DNA of 64,000 nt, taken from contig JACRBQ010000079.1 in assembly GCA_016213135.1 (NCBI GenBank), forward strand, positions 19,058 through 83,057, given 5' to 3'. The notes under the pieces are model-generated. The model was given only the letters and a program-made list of their open reading frames with translations. It was not told the origin of the DNA and did not search any database. The stretch is from Chloroflexota bacterium (lineage in GTDB: Bacteria; Chloroflexota; Anaerolineae; Anaerolineales; VGOW01). The position numbers were made by a program, and so were the translations under genes. How positions within the stretch are numbered: position 1 is the stretch's first letter; each line of letters starts with the position of its first letter. This document shows, one piece after another, positions 1 through 57,777 of this stretch.

Positions 1-3000
1 AAATCAACCGCTCGCCCAGCCGGTCACCCGTGGCCGGGTTGTACCAGCCCACGCCGATGTTGTAGGTTCCGGCGGGCACGCCATCGAGCGACAGGGTGAC
101 GATCTGGCTCACTGCCTCGTCGGCGAACCATTGCGAGGTGGGGATTGCGGGGAAGGCATCGGCCTGGGCCGCGATACTTTCGTCGGCAGGGTTGAATAGG
201 TGGACGAAGTATTTGTAGTCGGCGGCGGTGGGGCCGAGGGCCTGCCAGTGCAGGGTGAGGGTGAGCGCGGCGGGGTCGAGGGCCAGGTCGTACCCGGCGA
301 GGGCAATGGCTTCGGGCGGCGCGCCGAACACCGCGCCCGATTTATATTGCATGGGCGGCGGTTCGGCGGTGCGCGTTGAGGCGGTGATGTTCAGCGCGCC
401 CACGGCCACGGCGGGCGAGAGCAAAGTTGAATCTGAGGCGAGCAGTTGGGCGTTGAGGGTGTAGCGGCCCGGGCCGGCGACCACGGGCAGGGGCAGGGTC
501 ATGCGCCCGGCCACAAATGCTCCGGCGGCCCACTGCGACGAGGGCAGCGCGGCGAGCGCGCCATCGGCAAAGGCGGTCACTTCGCCGTTGGGGCTGATGA
601 GGCTCCAGCGCACGCCGTAGTCGTCGGGCAGCGGGGCCAACACCAACCAGCGCGCGGTGAAGGCGAGCGTGCCGCCAGCGGCCACGTCGGCGGGCAGCAG
701 CACGCTGTGCAGCGCCAAAGCGTCGGTGAACGAATGGGCCGGGGCGGTGCCAGGGGCAGGCGACCACTGGCTCAAATGCACGGGCACGGTGGCGGCTCCC
801 ACCGGGGTGAGGGTGGCCGCGTCGTACAGAGTCAACGTGAGTGGATAGTCGCCCGGAGGCAATCCGCTGGGCAAATCAAATTGATAAGTGTCGGGGATGA
901 TTTCGCCGGCGCGCCACAGGCCGGTGGGGTAGATGCCGCCGGTGGGCTGGGTGTCGAGCGCGGCCAGTTCGCTGTCCGCCGAATCGCGCAAGCGCAGCGC
1001 GAGCAAAAGGTTGGCGGGCACGGGCGCAGTGGCTTGCCAGTGTAGCGTGAGCGCGAGCGCCGATGAGTTGGGCTGCGCGGCGACGGCGTCGAGTAGCGCG
1101 ATGGACGGCGTGAGGACGGCGAGCGGCATTGGGGCAACGGTCTGCGCGCCCGCGCCCTCGATGCGGATGGGGCGCAGGAAAATGCGCCCCCGCGTTTGCC
1201 CGCCGGAGGTGAGGGCCGGAGTGTTGATGCCCGCTTCGGTGAGGCCGAGCCGGATGAGGTAGATGCCGGGCGGCGCATCCTCGGGCACGCGCAGCACGGC
1301 GGCGGCGGCCAGTCCGCGCGCCGCGCCCGTCGCGCCGGCAAAGGTGTGGGGCAGCGTGAGCAGGTGCTCCGCCGGTGAAACGAGCGCGAGGTCGAAGGCG
1401 GCGCGGCCACTGGCTTGCCATTGCAGGGTGACGCCGAGGAAGTCGCCGGGGCGGAGTGTGTCGAGCGAGTAGTTGTAGTTGACGAGGGCGTCGCCGTTGC
1501 CGAAGTGGACGGGCGCTGCGGTGAGGTAGGCCTGTTGATCAAAATCCATGGTGGGCGCGCCGGAGGTGGCGGTCCGGGCGTTGAGCCAGTGGCCGCCGAA
1601 CGCCAGCCCCAGCAGTGTGACCGTTGCCGCGCCCCAGCCGAAGAGGGCGCGACGCGTGATCGCCAACCGGCTCTTCCACGGTGCGGCGATGACGACGGCC
1701 AGCGCCAGCGCGATGAGAGAGACCATGCCGGCAAGTCGGCGTGTCGGTGTGTCCCGCAGCGACAACTCAATTTTGTGGCGGCCCTGGGGCAGGTCGAAGG
1801 CAATCCAGCCGAGGCCGTCGGCGGGACGCACGTCCAGCGGCTTCTCATCGGCGCGGGCCTGCCAGCCGGGCCAGTAGAGCAGCGGCACCGCCACGGCGGC
1901 GCTGGCCGAACTGACGTTGATGTCCCACGTTTGCGAGGCGGCGCGTTTGGCGAGGCGCTGCCCGTCGGCCCGGCCGCTGAGGGCTTTGAGCGAAACGTCG
2001 CCGCCAATGAATTCCTCCGAGGTGTAGGGCCGGGGCAGAGTCCAACGGGGCAGGTATTCGTTGCGAATGGTGGCGCCGATGTTGCCGGTGAAGTATTCGT
2101 ACAGTTGCAACCGGTTGGCGGTCACGTCGGCATCGGCCACAGGCACAAAGTCGGGGCGGAGGCCAATAATACTCAATACAGAATACCCAATACCCAATAA
2201 AGCTATTAGCCCATGACGCATTGTCCATATTTGGTATTTGGTATTGGGTATTGGGTATTCATCCGTTGCCGGCTGCACAATTAACCCAATGAGGGCGCTG
2301 GCGAACAGGCTTTGTACCGAGAGGAAGCGCCACGGAAATTGGACGAACGGCAGCAGCGGCAGATGCGCCCACAGCGGCTGGCTGTAACGGGTGATCATGA
2401 AGGAGGAGAGCAGGAAAGAGAGAAGGATGAAGGATGAAGGATGAAGGATGAATGCGGAATGTTGAATGTTGAGTGTTGAATTGTGACGAGCTTTTACGCT
2501 CTGAACGATCCGAATTGCGGCGACGGCGAGGCCGAGGGCGACGAGGGCGGTTTGGGCGAGGCCCATGGCAAACGGGGTGCCGGTGGCGCTGCCCACGTCG
2601 TAATTGAACAGCAGCGAGAGTTGAACGAGGTTGCGCCCGCGAAAGTGGTTGGCGTAGTTGAAGTAGCCGGTGGTCTGGTTTTGCAGTTGGCCGTAGCCGG
2701 TTTCGCGCAGGGCGGGCAGCCAGAAGAAGGCGGAGAGGGCAAGCCCAAGGGCAATGAACAATGAAGAATGAACAACCTGCACCGCACTGCGTGCGGGTGC
2801 AGTGCGGGTGAACAATGGGGCATGGCTAACCGCTGACCGCTGAAAGCTGAAAGCCAAAAACAGAATGTAGAGCCCTAGAAACGGCGAGAAGATGAGGGCC
2901 GAGATGTTGTGGGTGAGCAATAGCGCGGCGTAGGCCAGGGCCAGCGGCAGGCTGCGCCGCAGGGTGGGCCGTTGCGCGAGGCGGCAGGCGGCCCACAGGC

Positions 3001-3490
3001 ACAGCGGGTACAGGGCAAAGGCCCAAAACTCACCCAGCGAATCGCCGCGCACGTATAGGTTGACGAGATGGAACGGGGCGAAGGTATAGGCGGTTGCCGC
3101 CAGCCACGCCGCGCCCCGGCTCGCCCCGGCACAGCGCAGCCAGCCATAGAGGCCAAAGGCGGCGACGATGAATCCGCCGAGGTGGGTGAGCTTGAGCGCC
3201 AGCACGTACGACGCACCCAGTCCTTTGAAGATGGCGGCGAGGTAGTAGGGCAGCGCGGCGTAATAGTTGTAGAACGGGTAGCCCAGGCCAAAGGCGGCAT
3301 CGGGCATCCAGCGCACGGGGAAAACGCCCTGCCGCAGGGCGGTGTAAAGCTGTTGCAGTCGAAAAAGCAAAAAGGGGCTGTCGCCGCCGCCGCGCGTGTT
3401 AAGGAAGCCGGGGTTGGCTAGCAAAGGCAAAGCGGCCAAAGCCGACACGATGAGGAGCGTGACCAGCTCTGGCCGCCGGAGAACCTTCAT
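1..3490 (-). CDS. Large integral membrane protein (YfhO / 6-pyruvoyl-tetrahydropterin synthase-related type), truncated at window edge
   Basis: Manual translation from ATG at 3490 (MKVLRRPELVTLLIVSALAALPLLANPGFLNTRGGGDSPFLLFRLQQLYTALRQGVFPVRWMPDAAFGLGYPFYNYYAALPYYL...) stays open to base 1. The ORF track shows only out-of-frame ORFs here because no stop lies inside the window. Confidence 0.8.
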   Translation of the reverse strand, partial: MKVLRRPELVTLLIVSALAALPLLANPGFLNTRGGGDSPFLLFRLQQLYTALRQGVFPVRWMPDAAFGLGYPFYNYYAALPYYLAAIFKGLGASYVLALKLTHLGGFIVAAFGLYGWLRCAGASRGAAWLAATAYTFAPFHLVNLYVRGDSLGEFWAFALYPLCLWAACRLAQRPTLRRSLPLALAYAALLLTHNISALIFSPFLGLYILFLAFSFQRSAVSHAPLFTRTAPARSAVQVVHSSLFIALGLALSAFFWLPALRETGYGQLQNQTTGYFNYANHFRGRNLVQLSLLFNYDVGSATGTPFAMGLAQTALVALGLAVAAIRIVQSVKARHNSTLNIQHSAFILHPSSFILLSFLLSSFMITRYSQPLWAHLPLLPFVQFPWRFLSVQSLFASALIGLIVQPATDEYPIPNTKYQIWTMRHGLIALLGIGYSVLSIIGLRPDFVPVADADVTANRLQLYEYFTGNIGATIRNEYLPRWTLPRPYTSEEFIGGDVSLKALSGRADGQRLAKRAASQTWDINVSSASAAVAVPLLYWPGWQARADEKPLDVRPADGLGWIAFDLPQGRHKIELSLRDTPTRRLAGMVSLIALALAVVIAAPWKSRLAITRRALFGWGAATVTLLGLAFGGHWLNARTATSGAPTMDFDQQAYLTAAPVHFGNGDALVNYNYSLDTLRPGDFLGVTLQWQASGRAAFDLALVSPAEHLLTLPHTFAGATGAARGLAAAAVLRVPEDAPPGIYLIRLGLTEAGINTPALTSGGQTRGRIFLRPIRIEGAGAQTVAPMPLAVLTPSIALLDAVAAQPNSSALALTLHWQATAPVPANLLLALRLRDSADSELAALDTQPTGGIYPTGLWRAGEIIPDTYQFDLPSGLPPGDYPLTLTLYDAATLTPVGAATVPVHLSQWSPAPGTAPAHSFTDALALHSVLLPADVAAGGTLAFTARWLVLAPLPDDYGVRWSLISPNGEVTAFADGALAALPSSQWAAGAFVAGRMTLPLPVVAGPGRYTLNAQLLASDSTLLSPAVAVGALNITASTRTAEPPPMQYKSGAVFGAPPEAIALAGYDLALDPAALTLTLHWQALGPTAADYKYFVHLFNPADESIAAQADAFPAIPTSQWFADEAVSQIVTLSLDGVPAGTYNIGVGWYNPATGDRLGERLI
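2181..2260. repeat. In-gene period-7 hairpin (TACCCAA family) with perfect 19-bp arms
   Basis: GAATACCCAATACCCAATA (2181-2199) / TATTGGGTATTGGGTATTC (2242-2260); encodes EYPIPNTKYQIW and IGYSVLSI in the minus-strand ORF. Confidence 0.95.
2424..2487. repeat. In-gene period-7 array (GGATGAA x4, TGTTGAA)
   Basis: ggatgaa x4|tgcggaa|tgttgaa|tgttgag|tgttgaa; codes NSTLNIQHSAFILHPSSFIL. Confidence 0.95.
2752..2820. repeat. In-gene composite repeat: AATGAAC/AGAATGA units + CTGCACCGCAC hairpin
   Basis: aatgaacaatgaagaatgaacaacctgcaccgcactgcgtgcgggtgcagtgcgggtgaacaatgg; hairpin shared with 19380-19414. Confidence 0.85.

Positions 3491-11774: not shown

Positions 11775-11797
<23 letters not shown>
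11153..11797 (-). CDS. Short 3-hydroxyacyl-CoA dehydrogenase-like protein with degenerate N-terminus
   Basis: C-terminal DGPGLVRMRVLCCLVNEAASALADGIASAADIDTAMKLGANYPRGPLQWADSLGLPVVLAVMRAL resembles the 3HCDH C-domain; no clear GxGxxG N-terminus. Confidence 0.65.
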
Positions 11798-13889
<2,092 letters not shown>

Positions 13890-16985: not shown

Positions 16986-17969
16986 ATGGCAAAAAAAGGA
17001 CGAGTGTTTTCCGGGGCGCGACCGACGGGCCGCCAGCATTTGGGCAATTATCTGGGGGCCATCAAAAACTACGTGGCCCTGCAGGACGATTACGAGTGCG
17101 TGTATTGCATTGTGGATTTGCACGCGCTGACCACGATGGACGAGTTTGAAGACCTGAAGCAGAACACCGCCGAGATGGCGCTGGACTGGCTGGCGGCAGG
17201 CATTCGCCCCGATGAGACGATCATGTTTGTGCAGAGCCACGTGCCGCAGGTGACGGAGTTGCACACCATCCTGTCGATGTTCACGCAGTTGGGCAAGCTC
17301 ACCGACCTGCCGACGTTCAAGGAAAAGGTGGCCCAGCACCCGCACAACGTGAACTACGGGCTGGTGGGCTACCCGGTGCTGATGACCGCCGACATTGCGC
17401 TGTACAAAACCGACACCGTGCCGGTGGGCATCGATCAGGCCTCGCACATCGAATTTGCCCGCGAGATCGTGCGCACGTTCAACCACCGCACCCAATCGAA
17501 CGTGCTGATCGAGCCGCAGATGAAGAACACCGAATACCCTAAGGTGCTCGGCACCGACGGCGCGCAGAAGATGGGCAAGAGCCTGAATAACCACATTGAA
17601 CTGGCGGCCACCCCCGAAGAAACGTTGGCCAGAGTCATGACGATGGTGACCGACCCGCAGCGGCAGCGGCGCACCGATCCGGGCCGCCCCGAGGTGTGCA
17701 ACGTCTTCACCCTGCACAAAACCTTTTCGCCGAACGAACTGCCGATGATCGACCGCGAGTGCCGCGTGGCCGGCATCGGCTGCGTGGATTGCAAGAAGAT
17801 TCTGGCGAAGAGCCTGAACGCCGACCTTGCGCCGTTCCGCGCGCGGCGGGCCGAGATTGCCAAAGACCCGAACCGGGTATGGGACGTGCTGCACGACGGC
17901 GCGAAGCGGGCGACGGCAATTGCCGAGAAGACGATGGACGAGGTAAAGGCGGCGGTGGGATTGCCGTAA
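16986..17969 (+). CDS. trpS: Tryptophanyl-tRNA synthetase
   Basis: VFSGARPTGRQHLGNYLGAIKNYVALQ...; KMGKS signature. Confidence 0.97.
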   Translation: MAKKGRVFSGARPTGRQHLGNYLGAIKNYVALQDDYECVYCIVDLHALTTMDEFEDLKQNTAEMALDWLAAGIRPDETIMFVQSHVPQVTELHTILSMFTQLGKLTDLPTFKEKVAQHPHNVNYGLVGYPVLMTADIALYKTDTVPVGIDQASHIEFAREIVRTFNHRTQSNVLIEPQMKNTEYPKVLGTDGAQKMGKSLNNHIELAATPEETLARVMTMVTDPQRQRRTDPGRPEVCNVFTLHKTFSPNELPMIDRECRVAGIGCVDCKKILAKSLNADLAPFRARRAEIAKDPNRVWDVLHDGAKRATAIAEKTMDEVKAAVGLP

Positions 17970-19353: not shown

Positions 19354-19450
19354 ACGATGAATGATGAAGGCGGAATGACCTGCACCGCACGGCGCGCGGT
19401 TGCAGTGCGGGTGAATCGTGAAGGCAAAGGTTCATCGTTCCGCGTTCAGC
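19352..19450. repeat. Composite element: period-7 iterations + CTGCACCGCAC hairpin + inverted iterations
   Basis: aaacgatgaatgatgaaggcggaatgacctgcaccgcacggcgcgcggttgcagtgcgggtgaa...ttcatcgttccgcgttcag. Confidence 0.8.
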
Positions 19451-54458: not shown

Positions 54459-54477
54459 ATTTTGAGAAGATACCTTG

Positions 54478-57400
54478 CTACCTTACCTTGCCGTTGAAGT
54501 TCACTATGTACGTGCCTTCAAAGGCGTCGCTGGTCGTCACCACTGTGTTCGTGAAGTTGCCGCGCGAGACACCCTTGGCGCTGTAGGTGATGGTGTGCAC
54601 CGATGGCGTCCCGGCCACGCCGGTGGCAACCAGTTCCGTGGTGTTGGCTACCGGCAGCGTGCCCGTTCCATCCACGTAGTAGTTGTCGCCTTCATTGCCG
54701 TTCAAGGTCTCAGCGCCCACAGTCAACCAGCCGCCGTCGCCGTCGCCGCCGAGCGCGCCATAAGTGAAGCTGATGTCCTCCACGCCATTCAGGCCAATCC
54801 AGATCTGGAAGGAGTCGGCCTTGGAAGTGCTGTATTCCTTCGCGCCTTCCCAGTCCAGCACCAGCCAGCAGGTGGGGCCGTCGCACAGGACAGCCGCGCG
54901 CAAATCGCCGCCGCCATCGCTGTCGCTCAAGTTCAGGTCAGTCCACCACGGGGCCAGCACGTTGTTCGGTCGGGCAGTGTCGGGGAAGGCCTGATTGATG
55001 TAGTCCACGTCGCTGCCTGTGCCGCCGCCCACCACCGCGTAACCGTTGGAAGTGGCGCCAATGCTGGTGTAGGTCTGACCCGCAAAGATAAACGGATCGA
55101 CGTCGTAGTTGACGATGGTCTCATCACCGATGCCGGCCTCCGGCGGAACGCCGAACCCCGAGAGCGGCAGGTAGCCCGCCGGCGACAAGCCGGGGGCCAC
55201 GGTCACCGTCGGGTCGGCCGAGCCGACCAGCGTGTCGTTGTAGGTCAGCCCGTTGCCGTTCTGGGTGGCGCCCACCAAACTGCCGCCCACCAGCTTGAGC
55301 TGGCTGGGCAGGTCGTCGGCCAGGGCCACGGTTGCCGGGTCGAGCGAAGTGTTGGTCACCGTGATGGTGCAGTCGGTCGTAGCGCCCATGTTTATCTGAG
55401 CGGGATCGCACGTTTTGGTGACCGTCAGGGTGTCGGGCGCGCCGCGCACGATCGTCACTGGCAGGTGAGCCGTGGTCGTGCCCTTGGTCAGCGTGATCAT
55501 GCCAAAGCGCACCGTGCCATCCGCCACGCCGGAGGCGTCAATTTTGATATTGAACGTGACATCGCCATTGGCGGGCACGGTCACGCTCGGCGGCACCGTG
55601 ATCTTCATGCCGGCGCCTGCGGTTGCCTTGATCGTCCACCTCCCGCCCTTGCCGCTCATATCGTGAGCCGTGCGTTGCAGGGTCATGATGCCCGGCATGT
55701 TGGGGATGTAGATGCTTGGGTAGTTGGCGTCCCACAGATCATTTTCATGAGCCACGAATTCGGCCCCTGTGGATTGGAACGCGATGCCGGGGTTGCCGGC
55801 CTTGGTCAGGTCCACGCGGCCAGAGCCGTAATCAAAGGCGTTGGCGGGAGTGATGCCGTCTTCCTTGAATACCTTCTTGGTCTTGGCGGTGGTCATGAGC
55901 GCCGACTTGATCTGACCCGGCGTCCAAGTGTAGTGCAGGGCCTTGAGAAGCGCCGCCGAGCCGGCCATGTGCGGGCTGGACATGGACGTGCCGGCGATAG
56001 CCTGGAACAGTTCACCGTGAGGCCCGGTGAGCGGGTCTGCGCCCAGGGGCGAGTTCCCGGCCAGAATCTGAACGCCGGGGGCGGTGATATCGGGCTTGCT
56101 CATGCCCAACCATTGCCCGGGGCCGCCGCGCGAGCTGAAGCCGGCCATCACGTCACCCTTGGCTGTGCCCTTGGTGGCGGCGGAGATCGTCGCCGTCACG
56201 TTCGGATGGCCCGCAAGGAAGTTGAGCAGCTTGGTGCCGGCATCGGCCTGAATGTGCGAGGCGGGCAGGTAGTGGTTGTCGGTTTCCTGATCCTGCGTTA
56301 CTGCGTTGTAGAGGATCATGCCCACAGCCCCGCCGGCCAACACGTTGATGCCCTTCTGCACGCGGGCGTTGGTGCCGCGCTGGCAGACCACAATCTCGTT
56401 CAGGAAGTCGGTCGCGCCGTAGTCTGTCTTGAGGCATTTCTCGTCGCCCACGGGAATGACCACCGCAACGGCCGCGCCGCTGGCGGCAGTGACCGACACG
56501 CCGGGCAGGTTGAGGGATGCGCCGTCGGTGGAACTCAGGCTAACCCGGTTAACAAAGGCGCGCTTCTGCGAGCTGGCGCCCACGGTCAGAATCCACGGCG
56601 AGCTGTTGTCCACCGTGTCGGGGCCCGGGCCGCTGTTGCCCGCCGAAGCCGACACAAAGATGCCGGCGTTGTAGGCATCGAGCCACGCCAGCCCGTCGTC
56701 GTCGGTGTACGGGTTGTTGGCCCCGCCGCCGATGGAGTAGTTGATCACGTCCACGCCGTCGGCGACGGCCTGCTGAATACCGGCCACGATGTCGCTGGTG
56801 TAGCCGCCCTCCAGGCCCAGCACTTTGTACATGACCACGTACGCGCGCGGGGCAATGCCGGAGACGTTACCGTACGACACGCCGAAGATGCTGGCCGCCA
56901 CACCGGCGTTGCCGGCGGCGGTGCTGGCCGTGTGCGTGCCGTGGCCGCCGTCGTCGCGGGCCGAGTCGAACTCTTCGGGCGTCAGGCCGATCTGGGCCTT
57001 GTAGGTGACAAGTTCATCATAAGCGCCGATGAGTTTGTTGTTGCAGGTGAACGGCACGTCGTTCGCGTTCCAGGCGGTGTTGCCGAAATCGCAATCGTAA
57101 GCGCCGCCCGGAGCGACGTAGGGCTTGCCGGAGGGGTCGGGATCGGAGAACGAGGGGTGCTCCGGCCAAATGCCGGTGTCGAGCACGCCGACCACGATAC
57201 CCTCACCTGCGCTTTCCTGTCCGCCCTGCGCATTCCACGCCGTGGGCGCGCCGATGAACTGCGGGCTGCTGTCGGTGTCAGGCTGATGCAGGGTGTCGGC
57301 GGAAACGCGCGCCACACCCGGCAGCGACGAGAGCCGATTGACCAGCCGCGCCGGCAGGATGACCGATACACCGCCCAGCACCAAATCGTAGCGGTGCATG

Positions 57401-57777
57401 AGGCGGGCCTCGGGCGCCACAGAGGCCATGGCGGCGGCGAAGGCGTCAATGCGCTGGTTCACGTAAGCTTGATAGGCGAGGCTCTCCCCGGACTTGAAGT
57501 CCGGTTTGGCATCGCCCACCTTCACGGCAGCAAAACCATCCACCCCGCCGGTGTAGCTGGCGACGGGCGTAACGTTGAGCTTGACGAGGACGCTGACGAG
57601 CGTATCGGATTTTGTGGCGTCGTACTGCGAGTCGGGAGTCAGGCCGGAGGCCGTGAACCGACTGACGCCTTCCTGTGCCATAGCCGAGGAAGCCAACGCA
57701 AGAATTAGCGACAGGCTTACCAGCACATGGACAAGTTTGAGTGTGCGACCATGTTTCAACATGCCAAATCTCCTCAT
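54478..57777 (-). CDS. S8-family subtilisin-like serine protease with inhibitor-I9-like, PA-like and C-terminal beta-rich domains
   Basis: GVLDTGIWPEHPSF; GGHGTHTASTAAGN; GTSMSSPHMAGSAALLKA; signal peptide. Start may be MLKHGRTLKL. Confidence 0.95.
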   Translation of the reverse strand: MRRFGMLKHGRTLKLVHVLVSLSLILALASSAMAQEGVSRFTASGLTPDSQYDATKSDTLVSVLVKLNVTPVASYTGGVDGFAAVKVGDAKPDFKSGESLAYQAYVNQRIDAFAAAMASVAPEARLMHRYDLVLGGVSVILPARLVNRLSSLPGVARVSADTLHQPDTDSSPQFIGAPTAWNAQGGQESAGEGIVVGVLDTGIWPEHPSFSDPDPSGKPYVAPGGAYDCDFGNTAWNANDVPFTCNNKLIGAYDELVTYKAQIGLTPEEFDSARDDGGHGTHTASTAAGNAGVAASIFGVSYGNVSGIAPRAYVVMYKVLGLEGGYTSDIVAGIQQAVADGVDVINYSIGGGANNPYTDDDGLAWLDAYNAGIFVSASAGNSGPGPDTVDNSSPWILTVGASSQKRAFVNRVSLSSTDGASLNLPGVSVTAASGAAVAVVIPVGDEKCLKTDYGATDFLNEIVVCQRGTNARVQKGINVLAGGAVGMILYNAVTQDQETDNHYLPASHIQADAGTKLLNFLAGHPNVTATISAATKGTAKGDVMAGFSSRGGPGQWLGMSKPDITAPGVQILAGNSPLGADPLTGPHGELFQAIAGTSMSSPHMAGSAALLKALHYTWTPGQIKSALMTTAKTKKVFKEDGITPANAFDYGSGRVDLTKAGNPGIAFQSTGAEFVAHENDLWDANYPSIYIPNMPGIMTLQRTAHDMSGKGGRWTIKATAGAGMKITVPPSVTVPANGDVTFNIKIDASGVADGTVRFGMITLTKGTTTAHLPVTIVRGAPDTLTVTKTCDPAQINMGATTDCTITVTNTSLDPATVALADDLPSQLKLVGGSLVGATQNGNGLTYNDTLVGSADPTVTVAPGLSPAGYLPLSGFGVPPEAGIGDETIVNYDVDPFIFAGQTYTSIGATSNGYAVVGGGTGSDVDYINQAFPDTARPNNVLAPWWTDLNLSDSDGGGDLRAAVLCDGPTCWLVLDWEGAKEYSTSKADSFQIWIGLNGVEDISFTYGALGGDGDGGWLTVGAETLNGNEGDNYYVDGTGTLPVANTTELVATGVAGTPSVHTITYSAKGVSRGNFTNTVVTTSDAFEGTYIVNFNGKVR

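Follow-up and report, generated by a model that had tools for sequence, protein, structure and literature searches.

The window, that is, the whole stretch of 64,000 nucleotides that was analysed, corresponded to positions 19058-83057 of one contig (C36) of a draft genome of 3.84 Mb in 147 contigs, in which a search for SSU rRNA gave no match. At the window edge, a gene on the minus strand started at position 3490 and ended 33 bases past the edge; its ORF comprised 1163 aa inside the window and about 1173 aa on the contig (1174 residues with the stop). A Pfam scan matched the product to PTPS_related (PF10131) with an E value of 3e-10. This host gene, the repeats inside it and a second host gene are listed below.

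1..3490, minus strand: host gene, GT-C-like polytopic membrane protein (PTPS_related PF10131; Pfam and AlphaFold2 model, pLDDT 80)
2168..2199, minus strand: site C arm 1, TACCCAA-type heptamer array; coding strand TTGGGTATTGGGTATT; encodes the helix end LLGIGYSVLSII, residues 431-442
2181..2260, no strand: perfect hairpin of two opposed heptamer arrays; 19-bp arms 2181-2199/2242-2260, 100% complementary
2228..2259, minus strand: site C arm 2, TATTGGG-type heptamer array; encodes the loop EYPIPNTKYQIW, residues 411-422
2422..2481, minus strand: site A, (TTCATCC)n into (TTCAACA)n, found with TRF; GGATGAA/TGTTGAA on the given strand
2752..2775, minus strand: site B first half, (TTCATTG)n, found with TRF; CAATGAA on the given strand
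2777..2810, no strand: GC-rich palindrome CTGCACCGCACTGCGTGCGGGTGCAGTGCGGGTG, 34 bp, one of 3 genome copies
2825..2854, minus strand: site B second half, CAGCTTT/CAGCGGT array (CTGAAAG/CTGACCG on the given strand); encodes FSFQRSAVSH
11775..13889, minus strand: second GT-C-like host gene, with seven array sites at low threshold

Four heptamer-array blocks and the GC-rich palindrome lay within the single open frame of the host gene. An earlier note on this DNA had described three repeat types here, namely the 19-bp hairpin, the GGATGAA/TGTTGAA array and an AATGAAC-type array with a palindrome, all read through in frame; every coordinate was reproduced, and one ORF spanned every repeat. The count of types held only in part: the GC palindrome was distinct, but everything else, the hairpin arms included, belonged to one class of tandem heptamers. 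The heptamer make-up of the arms and the array at 2825-2854 had been overlooked. Site A encoded NSTLNIQHSAFILHPSSFILL, which made up the loop 338-350 and the first part of the helix after it. At site C, arm 1 was the second arm in coding order, and its residues 431-442 ended a membrane helix. About 1e-4 repeats like the 19-bp-arm hairpin were expected per 64 kb of random bases; as RNA, the hairpin had a fold z of -3.8. No second copy of the loop of this hairpin was found in the genome sample described below.

AlphaFold prediction from the single host sequence gave a pLDDT of 34, and the aligned run with 11 orthologues (pLDDT 80, pTM 0.71) was adopted instead. In this model, helices extended to about residue 442, followed by a beta domain, two helices and a chain of beta domains. 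The motif RGGGDSP was conserved in the loop following helix 1; a conserved loop motif at this place is expected of GT-C glycosyltransferases. The two features by which GT-C membership is judged, a polytopic domain and a conserved acidic first outer loop, were present as PF10131 and the RGGGDSP loop. The GT-C enzyme AftD (6w98) was a full-length structural match, a weak one (TM-score 0.24) in which the beta domains dominated, and a PDB sequence search with the host protein returned 0 matches. The host gene is regarded as a candidate, not a proven, GT-C-like membrane glycosyltransferase.

The modelled array loops (217-230, 338-350 and 404-417) lay between helices on one side, and the conserved long loops (26-79, 263-310 and 443-581) were on the opposite side. 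The array loops would be cytoplasmic if this single predicted structure follows the usual GT-C topology. The earlier note had written of surface-polysaccharide-type proteins; cytoplasmic array loops would fit a tolerance of variable loops better than a surface role.

The census of heptamer arrays was made on a genome sample of 1.37 Mb (48 contigs, 36% of the genome), which was non-random because contigs with known matches were taken first. At the same threshold, 235 arrays of period 7 were found, compared with 3-23 at any one of the other periods between 4 and 12; in 766 kb there were 139 period-7 arrays, compared with 0 in a third-order Markov simulation. Many head-to-tail 7-nt arrays in excess over other periods are the mark of STRR or long SSR, and this was the pattern found. 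After merging, the 243 arrays were divided into 112 intergenic, 72 ORF-internal, 43 at ORF edges and 16 at protein ends. A location mainly outside coding regions is a further mark of STRR or long SSR, which the intergenic and ORF-edge arrays would fit and the 72 internal ones would not. There were 91 different units, the commonest being AAGGATG, AATACCC, AACAATG, AATGATG and AACGATG. The triplet TCA/TGA occurred in 166 of 258 array units (64%), compared with 67 (26%) expected from shuffled units, and in 29 array units of the congener G003, where 12 were expected. A better conservation of the TCA core within arrays was also considered and dropped, as TCA was not special with unbiased register and control triplets. 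Contigs C12, C94 and C140 began with long pure AAGGATG arrays of up to about 19 copies. Because long pure arrays of this unit stand at contig ends, it is probable that heptamer arrays interrupt the assembly and that counts of the longest ones are too low.

A search of 301 genomes of the phylum with the array pattern TTCATNN gave 223 matches here and up to about 200 in another family; the distribution was very patchy, with zero in most other groups. Fourteen heptamer arrays were seen at 310000-359000 of the Kovacikia minuta plasmid NZ_CP083583.1, and the units TCAGGAG and TCAAAAT occurred both in this plasmid region and in the own genome.

Genes were called and helices counted with simple custom scripts. 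At 54475-57777, long ORFs overlapped on opposite strands, one of 1077 aa (+) and one of 1099 aa (-). The commonest array location was the co-directional gap, with arrays in 113 of 958; convergent gaps carried arrays in 3 of 123 cases (p = 5e-4 against co-directional gaps) and divergent gaps in 8 of 116 (p = 0.12). Array density was 0.76 per kb in intergenic DNA and 0.027 per kb in non-polytopic genes.

The earlier note had proposed a preference for large polytopic proteins and, as a check, a genome-wide test for enrichment in YfhO/GT39-like genes. Carried out on the 36% sample, the test showed enrichment of both polytopic and GT-C families. Polytopic proteins (at least 6 predicted helices) made up 16 of 38 array hosts, with 6.4 expected by length (p = 2e-4), and 41 of the 72 internal arrays fell in polytopic genes, which made up 16.9% of coding DNA. 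Among the 17 hosts with at least 5 helices, 10 matched GT-C families (PMT, PMT_2, YfhO, PTPS_related and TMEM260 were counted; E up to 0.001), one was a P-type ATPase, and the others had weak matches or none. The 102 polytopic non-hosts included at least 13 PMT_2 members among the matches listed; even on the assumption that 26 of the 102 were GT-C, the enrichment of GT-C in polytopic hosts gave p = 0.009. The GT-C and polytopic preference of intragenic arrays is therefore real, but it is neither exclusive nor specific: co-directional gaps were the commonest place, and soluble housekeeping genes also carried arrays. The soluble hosts included valS (valyl-tRNA synthetase), uvrA, mutS2, aroA (EPSP synthase), aroC (chorismate synthase) and prephenate dehydrogenase. 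In valS of the congener G001, another repeat type (PPSEPSPMGEGRGEGV) occupied the position of the heptamer array of the own valS; the own valS carried SPGGRGDGGEGE, of the same repeat type, about 60 residues upstream of the array position.

Coding arrays were kept almost always in the stop-free orientation, with TCA on the sense strand in 49 and TGA in 1; in tandem gaps, the TCA and TGA orientations numbered 64 and 38. The mean hydropathy of array peptides was +0.26 in membrane hosts and -0.79 in soluble hosts (p = 2.7e-5; per gene, p = 9e-4). Coding arrays had a median of 2.9 and a maximum of 5.6 perfect copies.

A 62%-identical orthologue of the host gene was found in the Chloroflexi MAG contig VGOW01000036.1, and further, more distant orthologues in Anaerolineae and other Chloroflexota. 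In two congeners (62-65% identity), G001 and G003, the orthologue carried arrays in the three array loops of the host gene, and this comparison with orthologues had likewise been proposed in the earlier note. The site A unit TTCATCC was common to the own gene and both congeners, as was TTCATTG at site B; at site C the three genes had three different units. The G001 orthologue had an extra heptamer hairpin in a fourth loop (174-177), on the same side in the model, where the own, G003 and distant orthologues were mostly short-looped. In the G003 orthologue, a stretch of the CCCAACCA type lay in a linker close to residue 790. Heptamer arrays in the three loops were found in 0 of 10 distant orthologues (34-45% identity), whose loops at the array sites were mostly short; 3 of the 10 had one short period-7 stretch in another part of the gene.

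For seven genes, arrays lay at the same site in congeners in 36 of 54 comparisons, with a null of 7.1 from circular shifts and p = 5e-4, which is the floor of the test; own arrays were counted once per congener and are not fully independent. At the shared sites, the unit was the same within one base in 18 and clearly different in 10. In the second GT-C-like gene (11775-13889), six and four of the seven array sites were common to the congeners.

Inverted array pairs numbered 27 in the genome sample, with 5.4 expected. Intergenic hairpins of opposed arrays lay between co-directional genes in 19 of 21 cases. Examples were seen at 17203-17260 of the contig C36, upstream of the window, and at C140:97057-97143 and C92:2455-2517. 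A role of the hairpins as terminators was rejected, since they were found between co-directional and not convergent genes. The 34-bp GC-rich palindrome had copies at 2777-2810 and 19380-19413 and on the own contig C14 (3046-3079); each of the three was nested in heptamer DNA, and the copy at 2777-2810 was in frame in the host gene. The palindrome was found in none of 120 other genomes of the order, nor in plasmids or viral contigs.

The analysis established the array class and its density, placement and orientation, the match in hydropathy, the sharing of sites and the absence of arrays from distant orthologues. The likely explanation is that the arrays are STRR-like degenerate heptamer expansions that are filtered by tolerance and find a loop refuge in GT-C-like enzymes. 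Slipped-strand synthesis favouring a 7-nt step would generate the arrays in large numbers, and opposed arrays would pair into hairpins. For the 7-nt step, a polymerase-contact idea is attributed to Mrazek, as cited in PMC4679880 and PMC4692102. Selection would remove arrays that break genes, and the survivors would be those in co-directional gaps and in indel-tolerant loops and linkers; the main intragenic refuge would be in GT-C-like membrane glycosyltransferases, whose cytoplasmic loops would be many, short and variable. In genes, where the arrays would be translated as neutral inserts, selection would retain an in-frame total length, a strand without stops and units with a fitting peptide, hydrophobic beside membrane helices and hydrophilic in soluble linkers. 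A loop that tolerates an array would stay occupied and its unit sequence would turn over with time. The period-7 excess, the stop-free strand, the hydropathy match, the modelled loop side, the distant orthologues without arrays in these loops, the higher array density between genes and the site sharing of congeners are the reasons for preferring this model.

Pure tolerance leaves unexplained the near-empty convergent gaps as compared with tandem gaps, the TCA/TGA bias and the recurrence of the same units genome-wide and in other phyla. Since local slippage alone would mean less sharing of units, some units may also have been copied from one site to another. If the arrays or their hairpins were mobile palindromic elements that had inserted in frame, in the manner of Rickettsia palindromic elements or of MITEs, this would agree with the fivefold excess of inverted array pairs, with the whole hairpin in the mostly short fourth loop of G001 and with the dispersal of the GC palindrome in 3 copies within arrays. 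Such elements have a defined length and sequence and terminal inverted repeats; the arrays had 91 units and no fixed length or ends, the loop of the 2181-2260 hairpin was single-copy in the sample, and the sequence at a shared site varied between species, which makes this origin unlikely. A selected function at the RNA or nascent-protein level, for instance to process intercistronic RNA, to make translation pause or to space out membrane helices, would account for the strong bias to co-directional gaps and for the sites common to congeners; it is quite improbable given arrayless distant orthologues, highly variable units and host genes of many kinds. A further reading, held to be just as improbable, is that the arrays are long-lived, position-conserved gene modules in which a TCA-biased 7-nt generator, spread across phyla, rewrites cytoplasmic loops, and that the arrays serve the translation or membrane insertion of GT-C proteins.

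Phase variation, in which non-triplet slippage in contingency loci would switch surface-polysaccharide glycosyltransferases on and off, draws on the enrichment of glycosyltransferases among the hosts and on the unit length, since 7 is not divisible by 3 and one unit more or less would put the gene out of frame. However, the coding arrays were short and degenerate, not the long pure frame-shifting arrays with on/off variants that define contingency loci; the genes compared across congeners were open, arrays also occurred in essential genes (valS and aroA, for example), and the array loops would be cytoplasmic in the model. This reading is considered very unlikely. An assembly or sequencing artefact could be suspected from the several contig ends of the draft genome that hold long pure arrays; its probability is negligible, as the internal arrays were short and in frame and recurred at matching positions in congeners that had been assembled independently. 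Sequence error at the repeat junctions of the host gene, which the earlier note had kept in view, is unlikely for the same reason: both congener genes were open, with arrays in the same loops.

Several known repeat systems come close to these arrays. Heptameric G-rich repeats have been described as GGGAATC in Xanthomonas and GGGGA[T/C]T in Nostoc (Rehm et al. 2015, PMC4692102). Like the arrays here, they have 7-nt units, mostly short arrays, a preference for gaps between aligned ORFs, and positions that are shared by related species with varying length and sequence; the inverted pairs of GGGAATC in Xanthomonas resemble the inverted array pairs (PMC4692102). They differ in having one G-rich unit family per genome, compared with 91 units here, and, in Xanthomonas, in being intragenic in 7-11% of cases (PMC4692102), compared with about 30% of arrays ORF-internal here; the enrichment in GT-C membrane proteins is a further feature of this genome, unlike the Xanthomonas and Nostoc repeats. 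The TAACTGA repeats of Beggiatoaceae, Cyanobacteria and Bacteroidetes (MacGregor 2015, PMC4679880) are also heptamers, stop-free in orientation inside ORFs and patchy across phyla, but they have one unit, lie mostly just upstream of start codons, and have rare related heptamers (PMC4679880). Cyanobacterial STRR (Calothrix), as cited in PMC4692102, likewise comprise several tandem-heptanucleotide families per genome; in what is relayed there, they are known mainly as fingerprinting targets and intragenic loop use is not described. Rickettsia palindromic elements also show repeat DNA tolerated in frame in conserved protein genes, but are 105-146 bp long and of defined sequence (PMC2229807), unlike the short variable period-7 arrays found here.

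Heptanucleotide repeats have so far been known in scattered bacteria and mostly between genes; this genome has them in abundance within genes, where they bear a clear signature of selection in frame, strand, hydropathy and modelled loop side. For annotation, peptides such as FILHPSSFILHP, SLFIVHCSLF and QYPIPNTQYPI should be read as translated repeats and not as domains. Since sites are shared and units turn over, a single genus would be enough to test why the step is 7 nt and by what route repeat DNA turns into protein sequence.
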